A stretch of 64,000 nt of DNA from Xestospongia bergquistia. Taxonomy: Eukaryota; Porifera; Demospongiae; Haplosclerida; Petrosiidae. The first letter of the stretch is position 1, and each line of letters opens with the position of its first letter. A program made the position numbers and the translations under genes. The stretch spans positions 15,962,446-16,026,445 of the forward strand of contig OZ014411.1 of assembly GCA_963965975.1 (NCBI GenBank), in the 5' to 3' direction. Positions 4,848 through 42,313 of the stretch are shown one piece after another. The notes under the pieces are model-generated. The model was given only the letters and a program-made list of their open reading frames with translations. It did no database searches and was not told where the DNA came from.

Positions 4848-7167
4848 ATGGCTCATACAAATTTTACTCTTATGTTGATATTGGCATCAGTGATGGTATG
4901 TACTGTTATTTCTATTACATCATTATAATTTGAAATTATAATCTGGTATTGTCATTAATATAAAAATGAAATGTCTTGGGTTTAATTAACAATCTTTTGA
5001 TTGTAAAGTTATAGATTAATTTGTTAAGGTTCTAATGTCTATAAGGTATAAACTATGGAAAGTAAATTGCCTAATGTCACATTTAATGTATTAGTCTACA
5101 ACATCAAAACTATACTTTTGATACATATAATACTGTAATCCTATAAAAAATGGATTTTATATACCACATTGATATAATAGAAGACATGGACATATCCATT
5201 TTGAAACATTCTTATATTGTTACCATAACAAAATAAGGCATAATTATGTTCAATTTTTAGATATCATATGCTGATTGGACGCTTTATGTTCGACTTAACT
5301 CCTATAGTAACCCTAACAGAGTATATGGTACTGATGCTGGAGGATCAAATCGATATTGTTGTTGTACATGTCCTTCCACCTGTTGTAGTTCAAATGTTAA
5401 TAGTCTTACTTGTAGCAATGGTGGATGTAATACTCGAATTCTTATATGTGCTAATCAAGGGAGTACTGCACAGTCCTGTGTGTATTCTAATGTTATTAAC
5501 AGTGATACCTTAATTTTTACAGACAAAGCGATAAAATGCAAGGAAGGTTGTCATCTAACTGGAGGATATTGTGATCAACCTGGACAATGTCAATGTAATA
5601 GTGGTTGGTCTGGTACTAACTGTAGTGTTCCTGAGTGTCCTAATGAGTGTCAAAATGGTGCTTGTAATGTACCTAATAACTGTGTCTGTAATGATGGATG
5701 GAGTGGAGTGAACTGTACTCAACCAGTATGTCATCAGAAATGTAATCCAACTGGAGGACAATGTACAGCACCTGATACATGTACATGTATTGTGCAGTGG
5801 ACTGGTGGACTGTGTGATGTTCAAACAGGTATATTTGCTTTATTTACTATAATTATTTAAGACTAATTAACAAGACTATAATTTAAAAAATCATCCTTTA
5901 TTTGTTTTGGAAAATACACAGTGAAGCACTAACTAGAGCTACAAAGATTGCATAATTAACATAGCTCTAAAATATTATAAATACAGCCTAGCAGACTAGC
6001 AAGAAGCTTTAAGCACCATCAGTCATAGCCATTGTTATACTGCTCAAGGTTACACTGTAAATTAATATGTTGTTTTAACAATTAATTTGTAGGTGGATTA
6101 CTATGGAATCTAGAATTTATGTGAATTACTCACTTTATAATATGTTGGTATGTACAAGTATAGTATACATACAAATTATACAGTGAATAATTCACCAAAA
6201 TTGTATATTCCATAGTAATTTACTGATGTAAATTACAAATTAATTGTTAAAATAACAATTTAATTTTTATAGTAGTGTTAATAAAATTCATTGATTGCTA
6301 TATACATTGGTGGTTAAAGGGTGCATTCATCATTGTATTAAAACAATGAAACAAATACACCTGTATAAATAAAATGTGGTCCAAGACAATTATAGGACCA
6401 CTTGACATACTGTGCATGCTAGACAGAAAAAGTAGCTTTTGTACATTGATGACTAATGAATCAGAAGTATTTCTTGTGTATATTATTATTATTGGTGAGT
6501 GTTGATGACCCCATATTAGTGATGTAATGATCAATAATGTTGTGTACAGTGGTATGTACATCTTGTCAGTTCAATGATTAATCTCAGGTAAGCTAATAGA
6601 AAGAGGACCCATTTAGATTTTTAAGTTGACTGTTAATTTACTTGATAAAATAAAGTACCATTAACATGAGACCTTCAAATTCAATAACATTCTACTTCTA
6701 TAACCAGAAGTTATTAAGATAAATTGAGACTAGAGAGGGTTTATATAGATAGATTTTGAAAAGTAATAGATGCATATTTGCCCAAAGATTGTTTCAAGAG
6801 CCAGTTTTAATTATTCCTTGTGGTAGGATTCTCATTTTCAGTTTTCTGAGTATTATCGCTGTATTGCCACGCCTACCAAACCAAGCCGATTATCCATCTT
6901 CTCTCTTCTGATACCTTTCCTCATAGTGCCATATTGGTATAAAGGAATTACAAGTCCATCATAAGGGATTGAGAACAGTATCTTAAAATAATAGATATGC
7001 ATGCAACAAGGCACAACTGTTGCTTATTATAGCACACTATAGCTGATAATGACAAATGTTTTAATTATCTTATTACCACAGCATCTGGTCATGGATCAGT
7101 CAACTTCATCTCATTTACAAGTGTCTGGCTGGCTGCTATTATTACTGTGATCATGGTTACTTTCTAA
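4848..7167 (+). CDS. Delta-derived EGF protein lacking DSL (gene B)
   Basis: Three exons give one open frame of about 233 residues: 4,848-4,895 (signal peptide, MAHTNFTLMLILASVM), 5,261-5,828 and 7,082-7,167. Exon 2 starts with ISYADWTLYVRLNSY and the cysteine cluster CCCTCPSTCC shared with genes D and E, then runs without a stop straight into three EGF repeats almost identical to those of gene A. The join (around residue 100, DTLIFTDKAIKCKEGC) includes what looks like an old intron end (tttttacag), so a deletion fused two exons. The DSL domain and second half of the N-terminal module are absent. The last exon fits in phase 1 and encodes ASGHGSVNF plus a hydrophobic C-terminus with no tail, suggesting a GPI signal or a tail-less TM. 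Expected at the cell surface. An alternative phase-1 terminal exon (9,929-10,164) lies downstream. Confidence 0.65.
6067..6258. repeat. Inverted repeat, MITE-like, in intron 2 of gene B
   Basis: Two arms of about 75-80 bp face each other, with good but imperfect complementarity. The outer core TTAACAATTAATTTGTA (from about 6,075) is matched in reverse at about 6,233-6,250, and the inner GGATTACTATGGAAT by ATTCCATAGTAATTT. There is a short unpaired centre. No transposase frame is present. It fits a short non-autonomous inverted-repeat element; the target duplication was not resolved. Confidence 0.6.
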
Positions 7168-8729: not shown

Positions 8730-10164
8730 ATGACTCATGGTTTCATTACTTTGCTGTTGTTATCATCAGCAATGGTAAGTTTCTGAATATATAGTCATAA
8801 TACTTTCTCCCTTTATACATCATTGCATGGAATTTCAAAAATATACACTGATTTTAATTCTAAAAACGATAGATTCATAACAGTACTTTTAAAGTCAGTG
8901 ATATGAAAATGAAGAACATTATTTTGTAATGATTTCTCTATATACTCAATCATAGGTAACATATGCTGATTGGACACTTTATGTTCGATTCTAATATTAT
9001 TAACAGTGATACTGTTAATTGTGGTCAAGGAAATGTTCCAGGTGGTCTGACTAATCCAGTTCAAGTTACTATACCAGGATCATTACTACTTAATGTGAGT
9101 TTAAAAGCACTTTGAACATTGTCAAAGTAATTTTTTTATTCTCCTAACTAGACATACAATATTATTTGTTTTTATTTTAATGAATTGGTATGATGAAAAA
9201 GGTAAATTCTAATATCATTGATTATGGAAAATTGATGTATAGTACTTATCTAAGTATACTGTAGTACTACTCTCTATTTAGATTTTATATACAATCCTTT
9301 CTTATTTATGAGCTACTATAACTCCACAACAACAAGACTGTTGTGGGTTATTTTTACATAGAAATTTATGATTTAATTTAAAGAATATATTCATCCTAAG
9401 CTTTCTGATGTATACTTGACGTTAGCATCTTCAAAGCAATTATAAGATGTTTTTTACTGCCTGATATGTGCATACATGGAGTATGCTTGTATTTAGAGCA
9501 TTTATTATATTTTGTATTCAACAATCAATATAATAAGTGAAATTAATGACACATACATCAACCAATAAATCTTATTAACCCTAACTATGATGGGTATGTT
9601 TGATCATTCTTGAACCTTTTCTCGCTAGCTTGCTTTTCTGCCTATAATTCTATAGCAATTAGTCTTCCACTGACTGAACTGGTGGACTCTGTGATATTCT
9701 GACTATTCTGACAAGTATGATAGATATATTGAAAAATATTATTAATGTCTGTTTGGTCTGAGTTTAGCAGTTATATAGTTAATTGTACACACTATATACA
9801 TAATTCAAATGTTTATATAAATATATTGACTTGTGGCTGGATGCTTGTCAAGTTGTAATAGCTATTGACAAGTAATAGCTATTACAATAAATCATAAGAT
9901 CAATTTTTACAATTATATTATATTCTAGTTATTATTGAAGGAGGAACAGATGGAGGATGTGTAGGTAATACATCTGCTATACTATCAGCAATTCATAATG
10001 AATGTAGTGACGATAGTGACAGCTGGACATTAATTGGAGCTATAGGAACAATTGTCAATGTGTTACTGAATGCTGTTCTTCTAATAGTGGTGTTGATTAT
10101 CACTATTTACTACTTTACATACAAAACTAAGTCAGCAAACAATAGTATTGAATTGACAAGTTAG
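8730..10164 (+). pseudogene. Deleted Delta-like copy (C)
   Basis: The signal exon (8,730-8,774, MTHGFITLLLLSSAM) is intact and nearly identical to that of gene E. In exon 2 (8,956-9,094) a deletion joins the codons after YADWTLYVR directly to a region 200 bases further on and shifts the frame, giving a stop at 8,992-8,994. Only the last stretch of the exon (GGLTNPVQVT in the original frame) survives after it. At about 9,675-9,765 a scrap of the last EGF repeat and following intron of gene A is recognisable. A terminal exon, 9,929-10,164, is an intact close copy of the gene A transmembrane exon (VIIEGGT..., open to its stop). The locus as a whole cannot encode the protein, but the last exon could still serve gene B by splicing, since the phase matches. 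Confidence 0.75.
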
Positions 10165-12606: not shown

Positions 12607-14409
12607 ATGGCTCATACTGTCATTCTGTTTCTTCTATTGTTATTGGTAATGGTAAGTTATAAAATGTTCTCTCTTATCACATAATTTGATTCTCAAAGAA
12701 GATATTTTGCTGATTCTTTTAGCATTTGTATAACTGATAAAATAATTTTTTGTCTATACTTCTCATTGTAGGTAACATATGCTGATTGGACACTTTATGT
12801 TCGACTTAACTCCTACCGTAATCCTAGGAAAGTATATGGTACTAGTGCAGGAGGATCAAATCGATATTGTTGTTGTACATGTCCTTCGACCTGTTGTAGT
12901 TCAAATGTTAATAGTCTTACTTGTAGCAATGGTGGATGTAATACTCGAATTCTTATATGTGCTAATCAAGGGAGTACTGCACAGTCCTGTGTGTATTCTA
13001 ATATTATTAACAGTGATACTGTTAATTTTGGTCTGGGAAATGTTGCAGGTGGTCTGACTAATCCAGTTCAAGTTACTGTACGAGGACCATTACTTAATGT
13101 GAGTTTACAAATTAGCTAGCAAATGTCAATACTCTTAATGATAGTGGCTATAACTAAAAAGCTATTGTTGACTGTAAGTTCAAGGGGAAATAAACATTGT
13201 ATACATTGCTTTTAATACTACAGACTAATGTACAAGTCAGCATTGAAGTCCTTGATTATGAAGGAGTATATTTTTGTATTCAACAATCAATATATATAAT
13301 AATTGAAATTAATGATGCATACATCAACCAATGGATCTTATTAACCCTAACTTAATAATGGGTATGATCAATAATATTTGAACCTTTTCTCAATAGCTTG
13401 CTTCTCTGCCTATATTTCTAGCATTCTATAGTTATTAGTCTTCCACTGACATTGCTACTAATTATCCAACAATAACATCAATATTTCCTAAAACATTCTT
13501 GTCAACTATTTTATTATTGTTATTAACTTTTCTCCTAATCTATATGATATAAACTATATGTGATAATATCCAGGATGAAATAATGAACTTTGTTCAGTTT
13601 GATTTTTAAATAATATTTGTATGAATAAAGCTGGGCCTATTATGTGTTAATTGTTCTTGATTACATAAATTGTGCAAATAATTTTAAATTAAATATAATA
13701 TGCAATGTACAATTCAATCAGGTATAAATGAAGATATTATATACCTAGTGATAGCAATTAACACATGGTAGGTGTGACTTCAAAATCACATAAATATTAT
13801 AAAAATTGACACTGAATTATGTTCTCTTGATATACCATAAATAAACAATTTTATAGTATATGTTATAATGTACTATAGGAGACTGTTAGAGTCAACATTG
13901 AGGTCCTTGATGACAATGGAGTAAGCTCAAGTGTTAATCAAAATCGCATTCTTAATTCTCAAGCTAACCTGCAGTCACCTCAAGTATCTAGTACTTTTAG
14001 TTCTGACACAACAGTTAATGAAGGTGGTAGCAATGTTATATCATTATCATATGCTACTAGAATAGAGTGTGCTACAAACTACTATCAGTCAAACTGTTCT
14101 GTGTACTGTATACCAACTAATGATACTACTGGATATTATACTTGTGATAATAATGGTAACAAGATCCGTTTACAAAGCTATGCCAATACAAGTACCAACT
14201 GTTCAACTTCTGGTGGAGATACTAGTACGTAAAAAACATAAATATGTCAAGGCTTGTATAATGTATACTAGTTTAGTATATAATACATTTAAAAAAATTT
14301 GGATTTTTTTCCTTTAGGATCTGGATCAGTCAACATATCCTCCAATGTCTGGGCTCTGTTTTTGGCTGTCACTATGACTCTTGTTATATTTTTTCTCATG
14401 CTGTATTAA
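12607..14409 (+). CDS. Delta-like ligand with degenerate DSL and no EGF repeats (gene D)
   Basis: Four exons in consistent phase encode about 269 aa: 12,607-12,651 (signal peptide, MAHTVILFLLLLLVM), 12,772-13,098, 13,879-14,224 and 14,318-14,409. Exons 2-3 form a Notch-ligand-type N-terminal module with the motif CCCTCPSTCC near residues 42-51 (inferred MNNL/C2-like). A DSL-like segment follows at about residues 195-240: CATNYYQSNCSVYC, then TTGYYTCDNNGNK. It keeps the opening C..NYY..C..YC and the Y.C of a DSL. The later CL-G-Y/W element has become RLQSYANTSTNC, so one cysteine is lost. Instead of EGF repeats the next exon encodes SGSVNISSN and a hydrophobic C-terminus ending in LMLY, i.e. 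a tail-less TM or GPI signal. Probably a surface protein; as a Notch ligand it would be atypical. Alternative: a decoy or adhesion protein. Confidence 0.7.
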
Positions 14410-15539
14410 TTTTAATAGAAAGTAATTTGTGATCTTTTATCAGTACTTACCAGTACAGTGTGCTTTATTTTTATAATAAATGTGAAAGTGACCATGCTCT
14501 GACGTCATCTAATGCATGCAAGTGAGTATTAGACCTCCTAGACAAGTAGAAATGACCAGTAATGGATGCGCAATGTCATTGACATCATAGTGCAAATTTG
14601 TGATCATACATGTAAGTTTTAGTTTCATAGGCCAGACCCTGTGGTAAACAAAAGATATAGTCTCATGAGACTATGACTTGTGTATGGAATACAATGTTGT
14701 ACACAGTATACAAAATTGATTCAAGATTAATTAGTCTCCTCTTGAACATCTGACCAGGCAAGACTACAAGATAAATGAGATACGATATCAGACCAATTAC
14801 ACAGCAGTGATGGCTGAAAAAGCAAGTAAGAGTGTCCTCACAAGCATAAGATCTTTAACAAATACTTGAGCCATTCTTTATATTTACTATAGGTAGTGTC
14901 TAGATCTGGCAGGACATTGTGCTTATTTTGCTGTGTATACAAAATGTTTTGGGTGTGGGAGTCAGTTTTAATGTAAGGTGAAGTATGTATGCTATGAGTA
15001 CTGTTAATACAATATATACTGTTGGATTATATTGAATTACTGATCAAGCTTACTTCATACATCATCTTTTAGCTCAAATTACTACAACACTGATATAGTT
15101 AATAATATAACATGCTTTAATTTAATCTGCTTACTGAGAGCCAGGGTTGAGTCAATTAATTAATCCATTATAATACTGGTCTTCTAAACTATAACATTAA
15201 CATTTATATTATACCACGACGATTACTACAGTACTTAATGCAAGTCTAACAGTTTGTGATATTAATGGTAACATTGATGGAAGACCAATAGGTTAGTGAA
15301 ACCGTAGTCTCTCAAGTCCCTTTTATAATAGATCTGACTCATCAGAGAACAAAACACTAAGAGTTTGTTCACTCCACAATGAAGTAGTCATTAGTTCATA
15401 GCCAAACAATTTATATGTTTGAATGAATGTTGATCACTTTTTAATAATCAGTTAAATTATCACTCCCACAATGATTATTTAATTAGTTCCAAGTTTTTGT
15501 TGCATATGCTAGCTGTTGCCACACTTATAGCCTTTCCAA

Positions 15540-15806
15540 ATTTCTTCCACCACTGATATATTTACCTGACACTACTATGAACTGTTTAACTGCTGGTAGT
15601 GGAAGTACTGTTATGCAAGCTATATAATTACACTGAGATATGTGTTATGTATATTAATACATTGTTTATAGTGCACTAGCCCATTTTAAATAAAAACATT
15701 TTTGATTTTCTTTAAGATATTAATGAGTCAACATATCCTCAAATGTCTGGGCTCTGTTTTTGGCTGTCATTACTACTTTTGTTATATTTTTTCTGTTGTT
15801 CAATTT
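15540..15806 (+). pseudogene. Relic of the last two exons of a gene D copy
   Basis: At 15,716-15,806 the sequence matches the gene D last exon closely (AATGTCTGGGCTCTGTTTTT, then GTTATATTTTTTCT), and about 150 bases before it a stretch containing CTGACACTACTATGAACTG and a serine/glycine-coding end resembles the 3' part of the DSL exon. Frame and stop are not conserved. It is the remains of a duplicated D-type gene. Confidence 0.55.
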
Positions 15807-15934
15807 CAAAAGAAAGCACTAATTTATTCCATTGTACTCTAAATGTAAATAGTGGACACACCTCAGTCACCCCCACTCATTAAATTGGAATAGGCATATA
15901 ATTGTTCCTAAACTGCCGGTAAAGAAAGGCACTC

Positions 15935-16885
15935 GAAGGACTGAGGTATATTTAGTGAAGATGCTATATTTTGTTAGACTTAACTTTCAACTTTAGTTTG
16001 TCACTTTTGTTAGCTGAAATTACTGTAGTACTGATGTAGTTAATGTCATAACATACTTCAGTTTAACCTGCTTACTGAGAGTCAGGTTTGGGTCAGGCAG
16101 TAAATCCCATTAAAGTACTGATCCTCTAATCCTAAATATTAATAAATATATATCTTTGAGGGTGTATTGTTACATCAGAAGTAGTCTTGTCCTCAGACTC
16201 TAAGAGGCCATTTTGTCCTAGCTTAAGAACAAATCATTGGTGTTGATATGATAACTGTAAATTGTTAAATTGATATCATTACTGACACTTGTAAATATCA
16301 TTAAAATTATATCTTCCATAAGCTAATCATTTGTAATTTCACAATGAAGGAAGTTGTTATTGAGTGCTTTGTCAACAGAAAGGATGCATCATTTATAAAT
16401 AATGGGGATTAATGCAAATTCGTATATTATCTTACGTTTCCTTATGTTTATGGCTTTAAAACCCTTAGCTAGATCACTAACAATTTTAGTTGTGACCCTT
16501 TTTTAAATACTAAGGTAAACACATTGTGTAGACAGAAGAACATATTTTGATATTAGCTTCATCTAATATTCGTGTGTCTGCTGATCGAATTTACCTGATG
16601 AATTCTCCCCATGGCTCTATGGCCATATAAAACAATCTGTCTTGATAAAATAGTACATTAGTTCTTTTTTATTAATATGCATATACATAGTGTTATTGGA
16701 TAGTTAATACAAGAGTAGCAAATCTATTTATGAGTTGTCTTAAGAGATCCTTTTAATTGTTTAGGTAAGATTGCTTCAACACCCAACGTTTCTAATTCTT
16801 GTGAGTTATTTTAATAATAATTATAAATTTCAGATAATATCACCAAATAGGGTAATGTTATGATATATTTTATATAGGATAAAAT
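15935..16885. repeat. Segmental duplication of 7,696-8,729
   Basis: Long near-identical stretches, for example TTAGTGAAGATGCTATATTT and GATGAATTCTCCCCATGGCT, occur in the same order in both places and lead into the nearly identical signal exons of C and E. The duplication therefore covers the 5' flank as well as the gene. Confidence 0.85.
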
Positions 16886-18787
16886 ATGGCTCATAGTTTC
16901 ATTACTTTGCTGTTGTTATCATTAGCAATGGTAAGTTTCTAAATATAGTCATAATACGTTTTCCCTTTACATATCATTGGAATTTTAAAAATATATATTA
17001 ATTTTAATTCTAATAATACTTAAGATATATTTTGGACTTATAACATTAGTTTTAAAGTCAGTGATATTAAAATGAAAAACATTATTCTGTAATGATTTCT
17101 CTTCATAATCATAGATATCATATGCTGATTGGACACTTTATGTTCGACTTAACTCCTATAGTAATGCCAGGAGAGTATATGGTACTAGTGCAGGAGGATC
17201 AAATCGATATTGTTGTTGTACATGTCCTTCCACCTGTTGTAGTTCAAATGTTAATAGTCTTACTTGTAGCAATGGTGGATGTAATACTCGAATTCTTATA
17301 TGTGCTAATCAAGGAAGTACTGCACAGTCCTGTGTGTATTCTAATATTATTAACAGTGATACTGTTAGTTTTGGACAAGGAAATGTTGCAGGTGGTCTGA
17401 CTAATCCAGTTCAAGTTACTATACCAGGACCATTACTACTTAATGTGAGTTTTAAAGCACATTGAACATTGTCAAAGTAAGTTCAAGTTATTTATTCTCC
17501 TAATTAGACATACAAATGAATAAATAATAAATATGATGAATAAAGGTAAATTCTCATATCATTGATTATAGAAAATTGATGTATAGTACTCATCTAAGGA
17601 GACTGTAGTACTCTCTATTTAGATTCACTTACAATATGATTACCTTTTCTTATGAACTATTATAACTCCACAACAACAAGACTGCTGTGGGTTATTTTAA
17701 TGTAGGAATTTATGTTTGTTTTAAAATATATATAATCATCCTAAGCATTCTGATGTATACTTAACATTAGCATCTTCAAAACAATTATAAGGTGATTTTT
17801 ACTGCGTGACACGTCCATGCATGGAATATATTTGTATTTAGAGCATTTTATTGTATTTTGTATACAACAAGCTATATAATCTACTAATTAGTGACACATA
17901 TATCAACCAATGAATCTCATTAATCCTAACTATGATGGGTATGTTTGATCATGCTTGAACCTTTTCTCACTAGCTTGCTTTTCTGCCTATAATTCTAGAA
18001 TTCTATACAATTTGTCTTCCACTGACATTGCTATATAACATCAGTATTTCCTAAAACAATCTTGTCAACTATTTTATTAACATTTCTCCTGATCTATAAT
18101 TATGATATAAACTATATATGATAATAACCATGATGAAATGATGGACTTTGTTCAGTTTAATTTTTAAATAATATTTGTATGATTACAGCTGGGCCTACTA
18201 CGTGTTAATTGTACTAACTTGATTATGCAAATAATTTGATATTAAATATAATATGCAATGTACAATTCAATCTTATGTATAAATGAAGATATTATATAAT
18301 ATGGTGAGAGCAATTGACACATGGTTGGTGTGGCATATAAATATTATAAAAATTGACACTGAGTTATGTTCTCTTGATATACCATAAATAAATAATTTTA
18401 TAGCATATGTTATAATGTATTATAGGAGACTGTTAGAGTCAACATTGAGGTCCTTGATGACAATGGAGCAAGCTCAACTGTTAATCCAACTCGCATTCTT
18501 AATTCTCAAGCTAACTTGCAGTCACCTCAAGTATCTGGTACTTTTAGTTCTAACACAACAGTCAATGAAGGTGGTAGCAATGTTATATCATTATCATATG
18601 CTACTAGAATAGAGTGTGCTACAAACTACTATCAGTCAGATTGCTCTATGTACTGTGAGTATACACATTTTTATATGTTTAACTATTGACCTTTTTTCTT
18701 TTTGTTATAGCTGCATCTGGAGCAGTTAAGACGTCAAGTGTTTTAATTATGTTGTTGGCTGCTATTGCTGCTATTAATTTTTACTGA
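16886..18787 (+). CDS. Delta-like protein with truncated DSL and GPI-like end (gene E)
   Basis: Four exons in consistent phase encode about 226 aa: 16,886-16,930 (signal peptide, MAHSFITLLLLSLAM), 17,115-17,444, 18,426-18,654 and 18,711-18,787. Exons 2-3 are close to those of gene D, including CCCTCPSTCC and ETVRVNIEVLDDNG. The DSL stops after CATNYYQSDCSMY because a donor site (TACT/gtgagt) cuts the exon where gene D reads on. The last exon adds SASGAVKTSS and a purely hydrophobic end (VLIMLLAAIAAINFY), the small-residue-then-hydrophobic pattern of a GPI-attachment signal. A GPI-anchored N-terminal module without DSL or EGF repeats is predicted. It shares a duplicated 5' flank with pseudogene C, so C and E are sisters. 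Whether it binds Notch cannot be told from sequence. Confidence 0.7.

Positions 18788-36496: not shown

Positions 36497-42313
<5,817 letters not shown>

Follow-up and report, generated by a model that had tools for sequence, protein, structure and literature searches.

What does a gene encode that begins like a Delta-type Notch ligand and stops soon after a damaged DSL domain? The question is raised by two neighbouring genes, D and E, in a 64,000-nucleotide window of the Xestospongia bergquistia genome (C1:15962446-16026445, in 146 Mb and 21 contigs). Notch ligands are thought to require the DSL domain for binding and a cytoplasmic tail for pulling on the receptor. Each predicted product starts with a leader and a complete N-terminal module, continues into a DSL that is damaged in D and halved in E, and finishes in a hydrophobic stretch without charges. 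On these grounds we tentatively read both, with slightly less than even confidence, as non-activating surface proteins that would display the N-terminal module.

Architecture of genes D and E

We reconstructed both genes from the sequence, one exon at a time; they lie on the plus strand. In D, exon 1 (12607..12651) encodes a leader resembling a signal peptide, exon 2 (12772..13098) the first part of the N-terminal (MNNL/C2-like) module, exon 3 (13879..14224) the second part of the module and a DSL without cysteine 5, and exon 4 (14318..14409) a hydrophobic C-terminus with the stop, giving a product of 269 amino acids. E follows the same plan in 226 amino acids, with a signal-peptide-like leader in exon 1 (16886..16930), the first part of the module in exon 2 (17115..17444), the second part and a DSL ending just before cysteine 3 in exon 3 (18426..18654), and the hydrophobic C-terminus with the stop in exon 4 (18711..18787). 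Besides the reconstruction itself, these assignments draw on exon-2 comparisons, on Pfam for both third exons (with an alignment and a profile match for that of D) and on hydropathy and tail alignment for both fourth exons. The first-pass annotation of this DNA had described frames open over four exons with correct splicing phases, and this holds for both genes: all six introns are GT..AG, the intron phases are 0, 0 and 1 in each gene, and no internal stop occurs. It had also described the leader and module as kept. In both first exons a hydrophobic leader by eye precedes ADW, and D and E are 92% identical in exon 2.

Pfam MNNL matched neither D nor E, and the places of the cluster are absent among the 13 MNNL matches in the genome. 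Exon 2 of the D/E family shares its invariant cysteines with MNNL-positive paralogues on C8 in a 22-row alignment. An exon-3 profile matched residues 121-201 of fly Delta (4.8e-16), and its PDB matches (at least 13) comprised 12 Delta, Jagged, Serrate or Delta-like chains and one chance match. The five PDB matches listed for the exon-2 profile were at chance level only (best E 0.16), and a structure predicted for exon 2 alone from the 22-row paralogue alignment (mean pLDDT 59.1, pTM 0.42) was too poor for a fold search.

The DSL is in a different state in each gene. Pfam recognizes it in D at residues 188-222 with 32.7 bits (cut-off 24.2), and finds no match of any family in E up to E = 1. The D domain reads KIRLQSY where most aligned members have KICLPGY. 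Of the earlier claim that it had lost a cysteine and the CL-G-Y element, the loss of cysteine 5 and of the G stands, but L and Y are retained along with five of the six cysteines. Judged by its residues, "decayed" is therefore the right term for this domain and "lost the DSL" is too strong. As also proposed at first pass, E breaks off mid-DSL at a donor, which sits just before cysteine 3 and leaves only the first pair of cysteines. Neither gene thus has the six-cysteine DSL of a Delta-type Notch ligand, D having five cysteines and passing the Pfam cut-off and E having two. By sequence, D and E are members of the Delta family by descent, and we do not class them as Delta ligands. DSL disulphides are described as joining consecutive cysteines (PMC3415683), so that the cut in E spares the first pair, while D, the family genes with serine at cysteine 5 and two forms with a stop inside the DSL lose the third. 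The loss of the third pair is therefore not special to D or E.

Both products end as the first-pass annotation had it, in a hydrophobic C-terminus free of EGF repeats and of a tail. The last 14 residues have a mean Kyte-Doolittle value of 2.34 in D and 2.29 in E, both ends are uncharged throughout, and the stop codon comes immediately after the hydrophobic stretch, leaving no cytoplasmic tail after a possible transmembrane (TM) helix. No EGF family of Pfam matched either product. A check for EGF or TM exons beyond the two tails gave no tblastn match at E <= 0.01 to a family EGF exon, a family TM exon or an EGF exon of the neighbouring group in window positions 10162-46593, a search that diverged exons could escape; splicing beyond the tails would thus lack a near family target. 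Uncharged ends of this kind would suit a glycosylphosphatidylinositol (GPI) signal, or else a TM helix that lacks a tail, as had been proposed. Both C-termini satisfy a GPI-signal pattern (small residues, spacer, uncharged hydrophobic end) by a rule of our own making, distinct from the public predictors.

The two tail exons resemble each other, with a global alignment score of 57 that exceeded all of 1000 shuffles (mean 27.3, maximum 50.5) and 53 of 74 ungapped columns identical (28% difference). Between the genes lies a relic of the D tail exon (15706..15814, plus strand, 83% identity to the D tail), which has two in-frame stops just before its hydrophobic part and, at the point where D and E terminate, reads through to basic residues. 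Given this continuation, the tails may go back to a TM protein that ended in a short basic stretch. Searches at the DNA level recovered the D tail in D and in the relic, and the E tail in E alone; no further copy came up. A derivation of the tails from the TM exons of EGF-less family members was not clearly supported by shuffle tests: the score of the long TM exon was reached by 14 of 500 shuffles against D, 112 of 500 against E and 29 of 500 against the relic, and that of the short TM exon by 177 of 500 and 52 of 500 against D and E, respectively. Altogether, what the sequence shows in D and E is a set of constant N-terminal exons running in phase 1 into a terminal exon that belongs to their own lineage.

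Divergence between D and E

D and E differ very unevenly along their length, by 29% in exon 1, 39% in intron 1, 4.6% in exon 2, 20.5% in intron 2 (where the alignment is partly forced) and 5.2% in exon 3. Intron 1 carries three indels and exon 1 none, despite differences at 13 of its 45 positions. The pattern suggests a mosaic, which probably arose through gene conversion. We built trees of single exons from a list of 21 genes, numbered here by their C1 positions in kb. In the exon-2 tree, D and E were grouped with 15581, 15655, 15939, 15366 and 15926 (support 0.989), and the short-TM gene 15947 fell outside. The tree built from the first part of exon 3 placed D and E together as a pair (0.836), next to an EGF gene. 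No EGF exon was found in any of the five exon-2 partners, four of which have a TM exon; the loss of EGF repeats noted at first pass is thus borne out but not special to D and E.

The larger part of intron 2 of D (13300..13870, plus strand) begins with about 170 bases of an interspersed repeat (at least 41 matches, with 40 of 180 candidates scored) and beyond them matched E only. Upstream in the same intron, positions 13224-13285 hold by eye a remnant resembling the start of exon 3 (TNVQVSIEVLDYEG) behind an acceptor-like site.

The alignable second half of intron 2, in which 60 of 538 aligned positions differ, gave a yardstick for the coding changes. Between D and E, dS (synonymous divergence) and dN (nonsynonymous divergence) are 0.096 and 0.038 in exon 2 and 0.083 and 0.047 in exon 3. 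The dN/dS check proposed at first pass therefore gave values below 1 (about 0.40 and 0.57, respectively), but the deficit is not significant alone (17 differences at about 420 nonsynonymous sites, 11 at about 129 synonymous sites; p = 0.064). Nonsynonymous differences are rarer than intron differences (p = 4e-5), and synonymous differences are indistinguishable from them (p = 0.43). The earlier suggestion that D and E may be selected products thus gains from the comparison with the intron, but not from dN/dS by itself.

Family-wide omega came to about 0.40 in exon 2; the first part of exon 3 gave about 0.70 and the DSL about 0.65. Kappa was held at 1 in these estimates, gene C was dropped for exon 2 and E was dropped for the DSL. 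The codon tests covered 24 of 34 exon-2 places and 21 of 58 exon-3 places, after exclusion of places with a stop or frameshift in that exon, most fragments, distant relatives and unfetched places. The exon-3 set also leaves out 15175 and 15796 (stop in their own exon 2), and the exon-2 set includes the gene C fragment, 15572 and 15743 (exon-3 frameshifts) and 15919 (stop in the EGF exon). We then counted private changes, that is, those seen in no other compared gene, a count that depends on how close the nearest sister is. D has five nonsynonymous and no synonymous private changes in the 44 codons of the DSL, and one and two, respectively, in the 171 codons of the module (Fisher p = 0.0015 for nonsynonymous changes, 5/44 codons versus 1/171); 19 other genes combined have 13 private nonsynonymous changes in the DSL. 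E has no private nonsynonymous change in the module, where other members carry up to eight in one exon 2. This distribution suggests that D and E have held the module and let the DSL go, a result that conversion from working copies could partly mimic.

Possible roles and alternative explanations

Contig C11 holds an independent parallel to the half DSL of E and a candidate Notch receptor. At C11:7031-7037 kb (stretch 7029501-7037500), three tandem genes have an MNNL-positive exon followed by a half DSL, whose exon by eye ends shortly past the counterpart of DSL cysteine 3. A 44-base intron and a TM-helix-like exon trailed by basic residues come next, and two of the genes extend to an NPAY tail. 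The half DSL is therefore no accident of E alone, and the 56-base intron of E is not unusually short here. The search of the genome for DSL did not list this triplet. Its proportions of nonsynonymous and synonymous differences (pN/pS) were 0.063/0.083, 0.021/0.050 and 0.062/0.109, leaving dN versus dS indecisive. Also, a search for LNR gave four matches in two places, and one of these is a gene at C11:6757 kb that, judged by eye, looks like a Notch receptor: besides its LNR matches it has EGF repeats, a TM stretch and the beginning of an ankyrin-like region. A NOD search matched nothing in the genome and was uninformative, 14 controls being equally unmatched.

In the reading that we favour, D and E would have arisen within a tandem family of Delta-like (MNNL-DSL) genes, and their products would be displayed on the cell surface, anchored there either by GPI or by a TM helix without a tail. 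Lacking a cytoplasmic tail, they would be unable to be pulled in to activate Notch, and their damaged DSL face should not activate it either. They would present the C2-like module only, and might act as a competitor or cis-inhibitor of full ligands or as an adhesion molecule. According to PMC5538765, Notch engages the C2 module with EGF12 and the DSL with EGF11. Consistent with this reading are the open frames and splice sites, the rarity of nonsynonymous relative to intron differences, the private changes of D that fall mostly in the DSL, the indel-free exon 1, the alignable tails, the half DSL on C11 and the presence of a putative Notch receptor.

Several observations weigh against it. A DSL-poor protein may lack Notch binding, which would speak against a decoy role. 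No alignment better than shuffles was obtained between the two genes for intron 3 or for the long 3' flanks (149/300 and 31/50, respectively), and by eye the last residues of D are the product of a one-base shift relative to E and the relic. Chance exons elsewhere in the window also satisfy the GPI-like rule (3/196 and 5/198), as do exons over the fetched regions, family exons included (27/829 and 29/893). To these add the marginal contrast of nonsynonymous with synonymous changes. Finally, exons 2 and 3 may have been overwritten by conversion from working paralogues; as the two exon trees disagree and the divergence is uneven, the constraint observed may be that of the donors.

This last point leads to the possibility, in our view somewhat unlikely, that D and E are pseudogenes of recent origin, or copies on the way out, and that their frames are still open because conversion refreshed exons 2 and 3. 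Broken copies are indeed common in the family (stops in 5 of 34 exon-2 matches and 11 of 58 exon-3 matches), the relic tail lies between the two genes, and the DSL of D appears relaxed, in addition to the uneven divergence and conflicting trees. However, synonymous divergence is intron-like while nonsynonymous divergence is about three-fold lower, and exon 1 and the tail remain open at 29% and 28% difference. It is very improbable that the gene models are wrong, with D ending by intron retention past the exon-3 donor as a secreted form, or with unseen exons following. A stop does lie a few bases past that donor (open reading frame 13879-14232) and the models were built from sequence alone, but the tail is common to D and the relic and aligns with that of E, both tails obey the phase-1 rule of the family, and no family EGF or TM match lies nearby. 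We consider it unlikely that D and E are surface or secreted adhesion or lipid-binding C2-like proteins of a fast-changing recognition family unrelated to Notch. Such a role would fit a module that is retained while DSL, EGF and tail vary among members, the reported binding of lipids by C2 domains of Notch ligands (PMC5538765), and a report that DLK1, a relative without the binding domain, does not bind Notch (PMC12216052). Against it stand a Notch-like receptor and full-length members in the same genome, and a report that in flies DLK1 is capable of regulating Notch (PMC2268666).

If D and E are non-activating surface proteins, one sponge's dozens of Delta-like genes, several of them with parts of the DSL gone and the N-terminal module retained, would show Notch ligands of early animals becoming non-signalling surface proteins, and genes of this type would be natural separation-of-function forms for testing the C2 module alone. 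Among known proteins, DLK1 has EGF repeats and no N-terminal module, the opposite of D and E. Contactins, GPI-linked non-canonical Notch ligands of the immunoglobulin family, are unrelated to D and E and resemble them only in possible GPI display at the surface. Closer parallels come from the sponge Amphimedon queenslandica, in which EGF-less and short-tailed Deltas are reported (PMC3482393, PMC2770060): AmqDelta4 has no EGF repeats, and AmqDelta1 combines three EGF with an intracellular domain that is greatly reduced (PMC3482393). D and E are like AmqDelta4 in EGF loss but differ from the AmqDeltas, all five of which are described as having both a DSL and a TM domain (PMC3482393), in their broken or half DSL and lack of a cytoplasmic part. 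Nematostella is reported to have some genes made up solely of DSL domains and one that combines MNLL with three DSL, for which the authors leave misassembly open (PMC2770060); these share Notch-ligand parts without EGF with D and E, but multiply the DSL where D and E lose it. C. elegans DSL-1 is reduced too, and secreted, but keeps its DSL and one EGF (PMC3415683), whereas little of the DSL is left in E, and a hydrophobic tail closes both D and E. The excerpts of the literature consulted on sponge Deltas and their expansion, on truncated Delta and on DSL ligands that are GPI-linked or act as decoys contain no genes like D and E, and an earlier description is possible.

The Delta-like family elsewhere in the genome

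Searches of the genome, whose counts are lower bounds, gave at least 53 DSL, 34 exon-2 and 58 exon-3 matches, of which 39, all 34 and 45, respectively, lie in C1:14.75-16.03 Mb. The exons after the DSL were inspected in 200 kb and nine short stretches. EGF exon(s) and a TM exon follow the DSL in 15866, 15881, 15955 and gene A (at the start of the window). A short TM exon was seen in 15926, 15939 and 15947, where EGF was not found. Genes 15581 and 15655 have serine for DSL cysteine 5, no EGF, a long TM exon and a cytoplasmic tail with NPFNV/NPAY; 15572 and 15743 are of this long-TM type but frameshifted. In 15366, cysteine 5 is likewise serine and the terminal exon was not found, a string search for the long TM exon giving none. 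Calcium-type EGF, named by eye, occurs in 14750 and 14759, and a stop before DSL cysteine 6 in 14752 and 14761. The stretch C1:14745001-14765000 holds these as a duplicated gene pair, one gene with calcium-type EGF after the DSL and one ending inside the DSL as a secreted form.

At every junction read (one EGF, three short TM, four long TM, two calcium-type EGF, D, E and the three C11 genes), the exon after the DSL starts in phase 1, so that terminal exons could be interchanged without a frame break. A broader proposal, speculative and in our judgement improbable, is that in this sponge the conserved working unit of the expanded Delta cluster would be the N-terminal C2-like module and not the DSL. 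D, E, the C11 triplet and the DSL-stop forms would then have repeatedly shed parts of the DSL, and interchangeable phase-1 terminal exons would pick secreted, lipid-anchored, tailless or signalling forms, making up a diversified recognition system of the cell surface beside or against Notch.

Three further observations concern the surroundings of D and E in the window. In gene C (5261-5860), exon 2 ends after residue 86 and an in-frame EGF exon comes next, the rest of the module and the DSL being missing. Positions 8956-10161 hold the relic of another copy, with exon-2 pieces, a match to the repeat of D intron 2 (about 9534-9674) and then a TM exon. On the minus strand, at 36497-42188, a run of many SRCR-like open reading frames by eye adjoins the Delta cluster.

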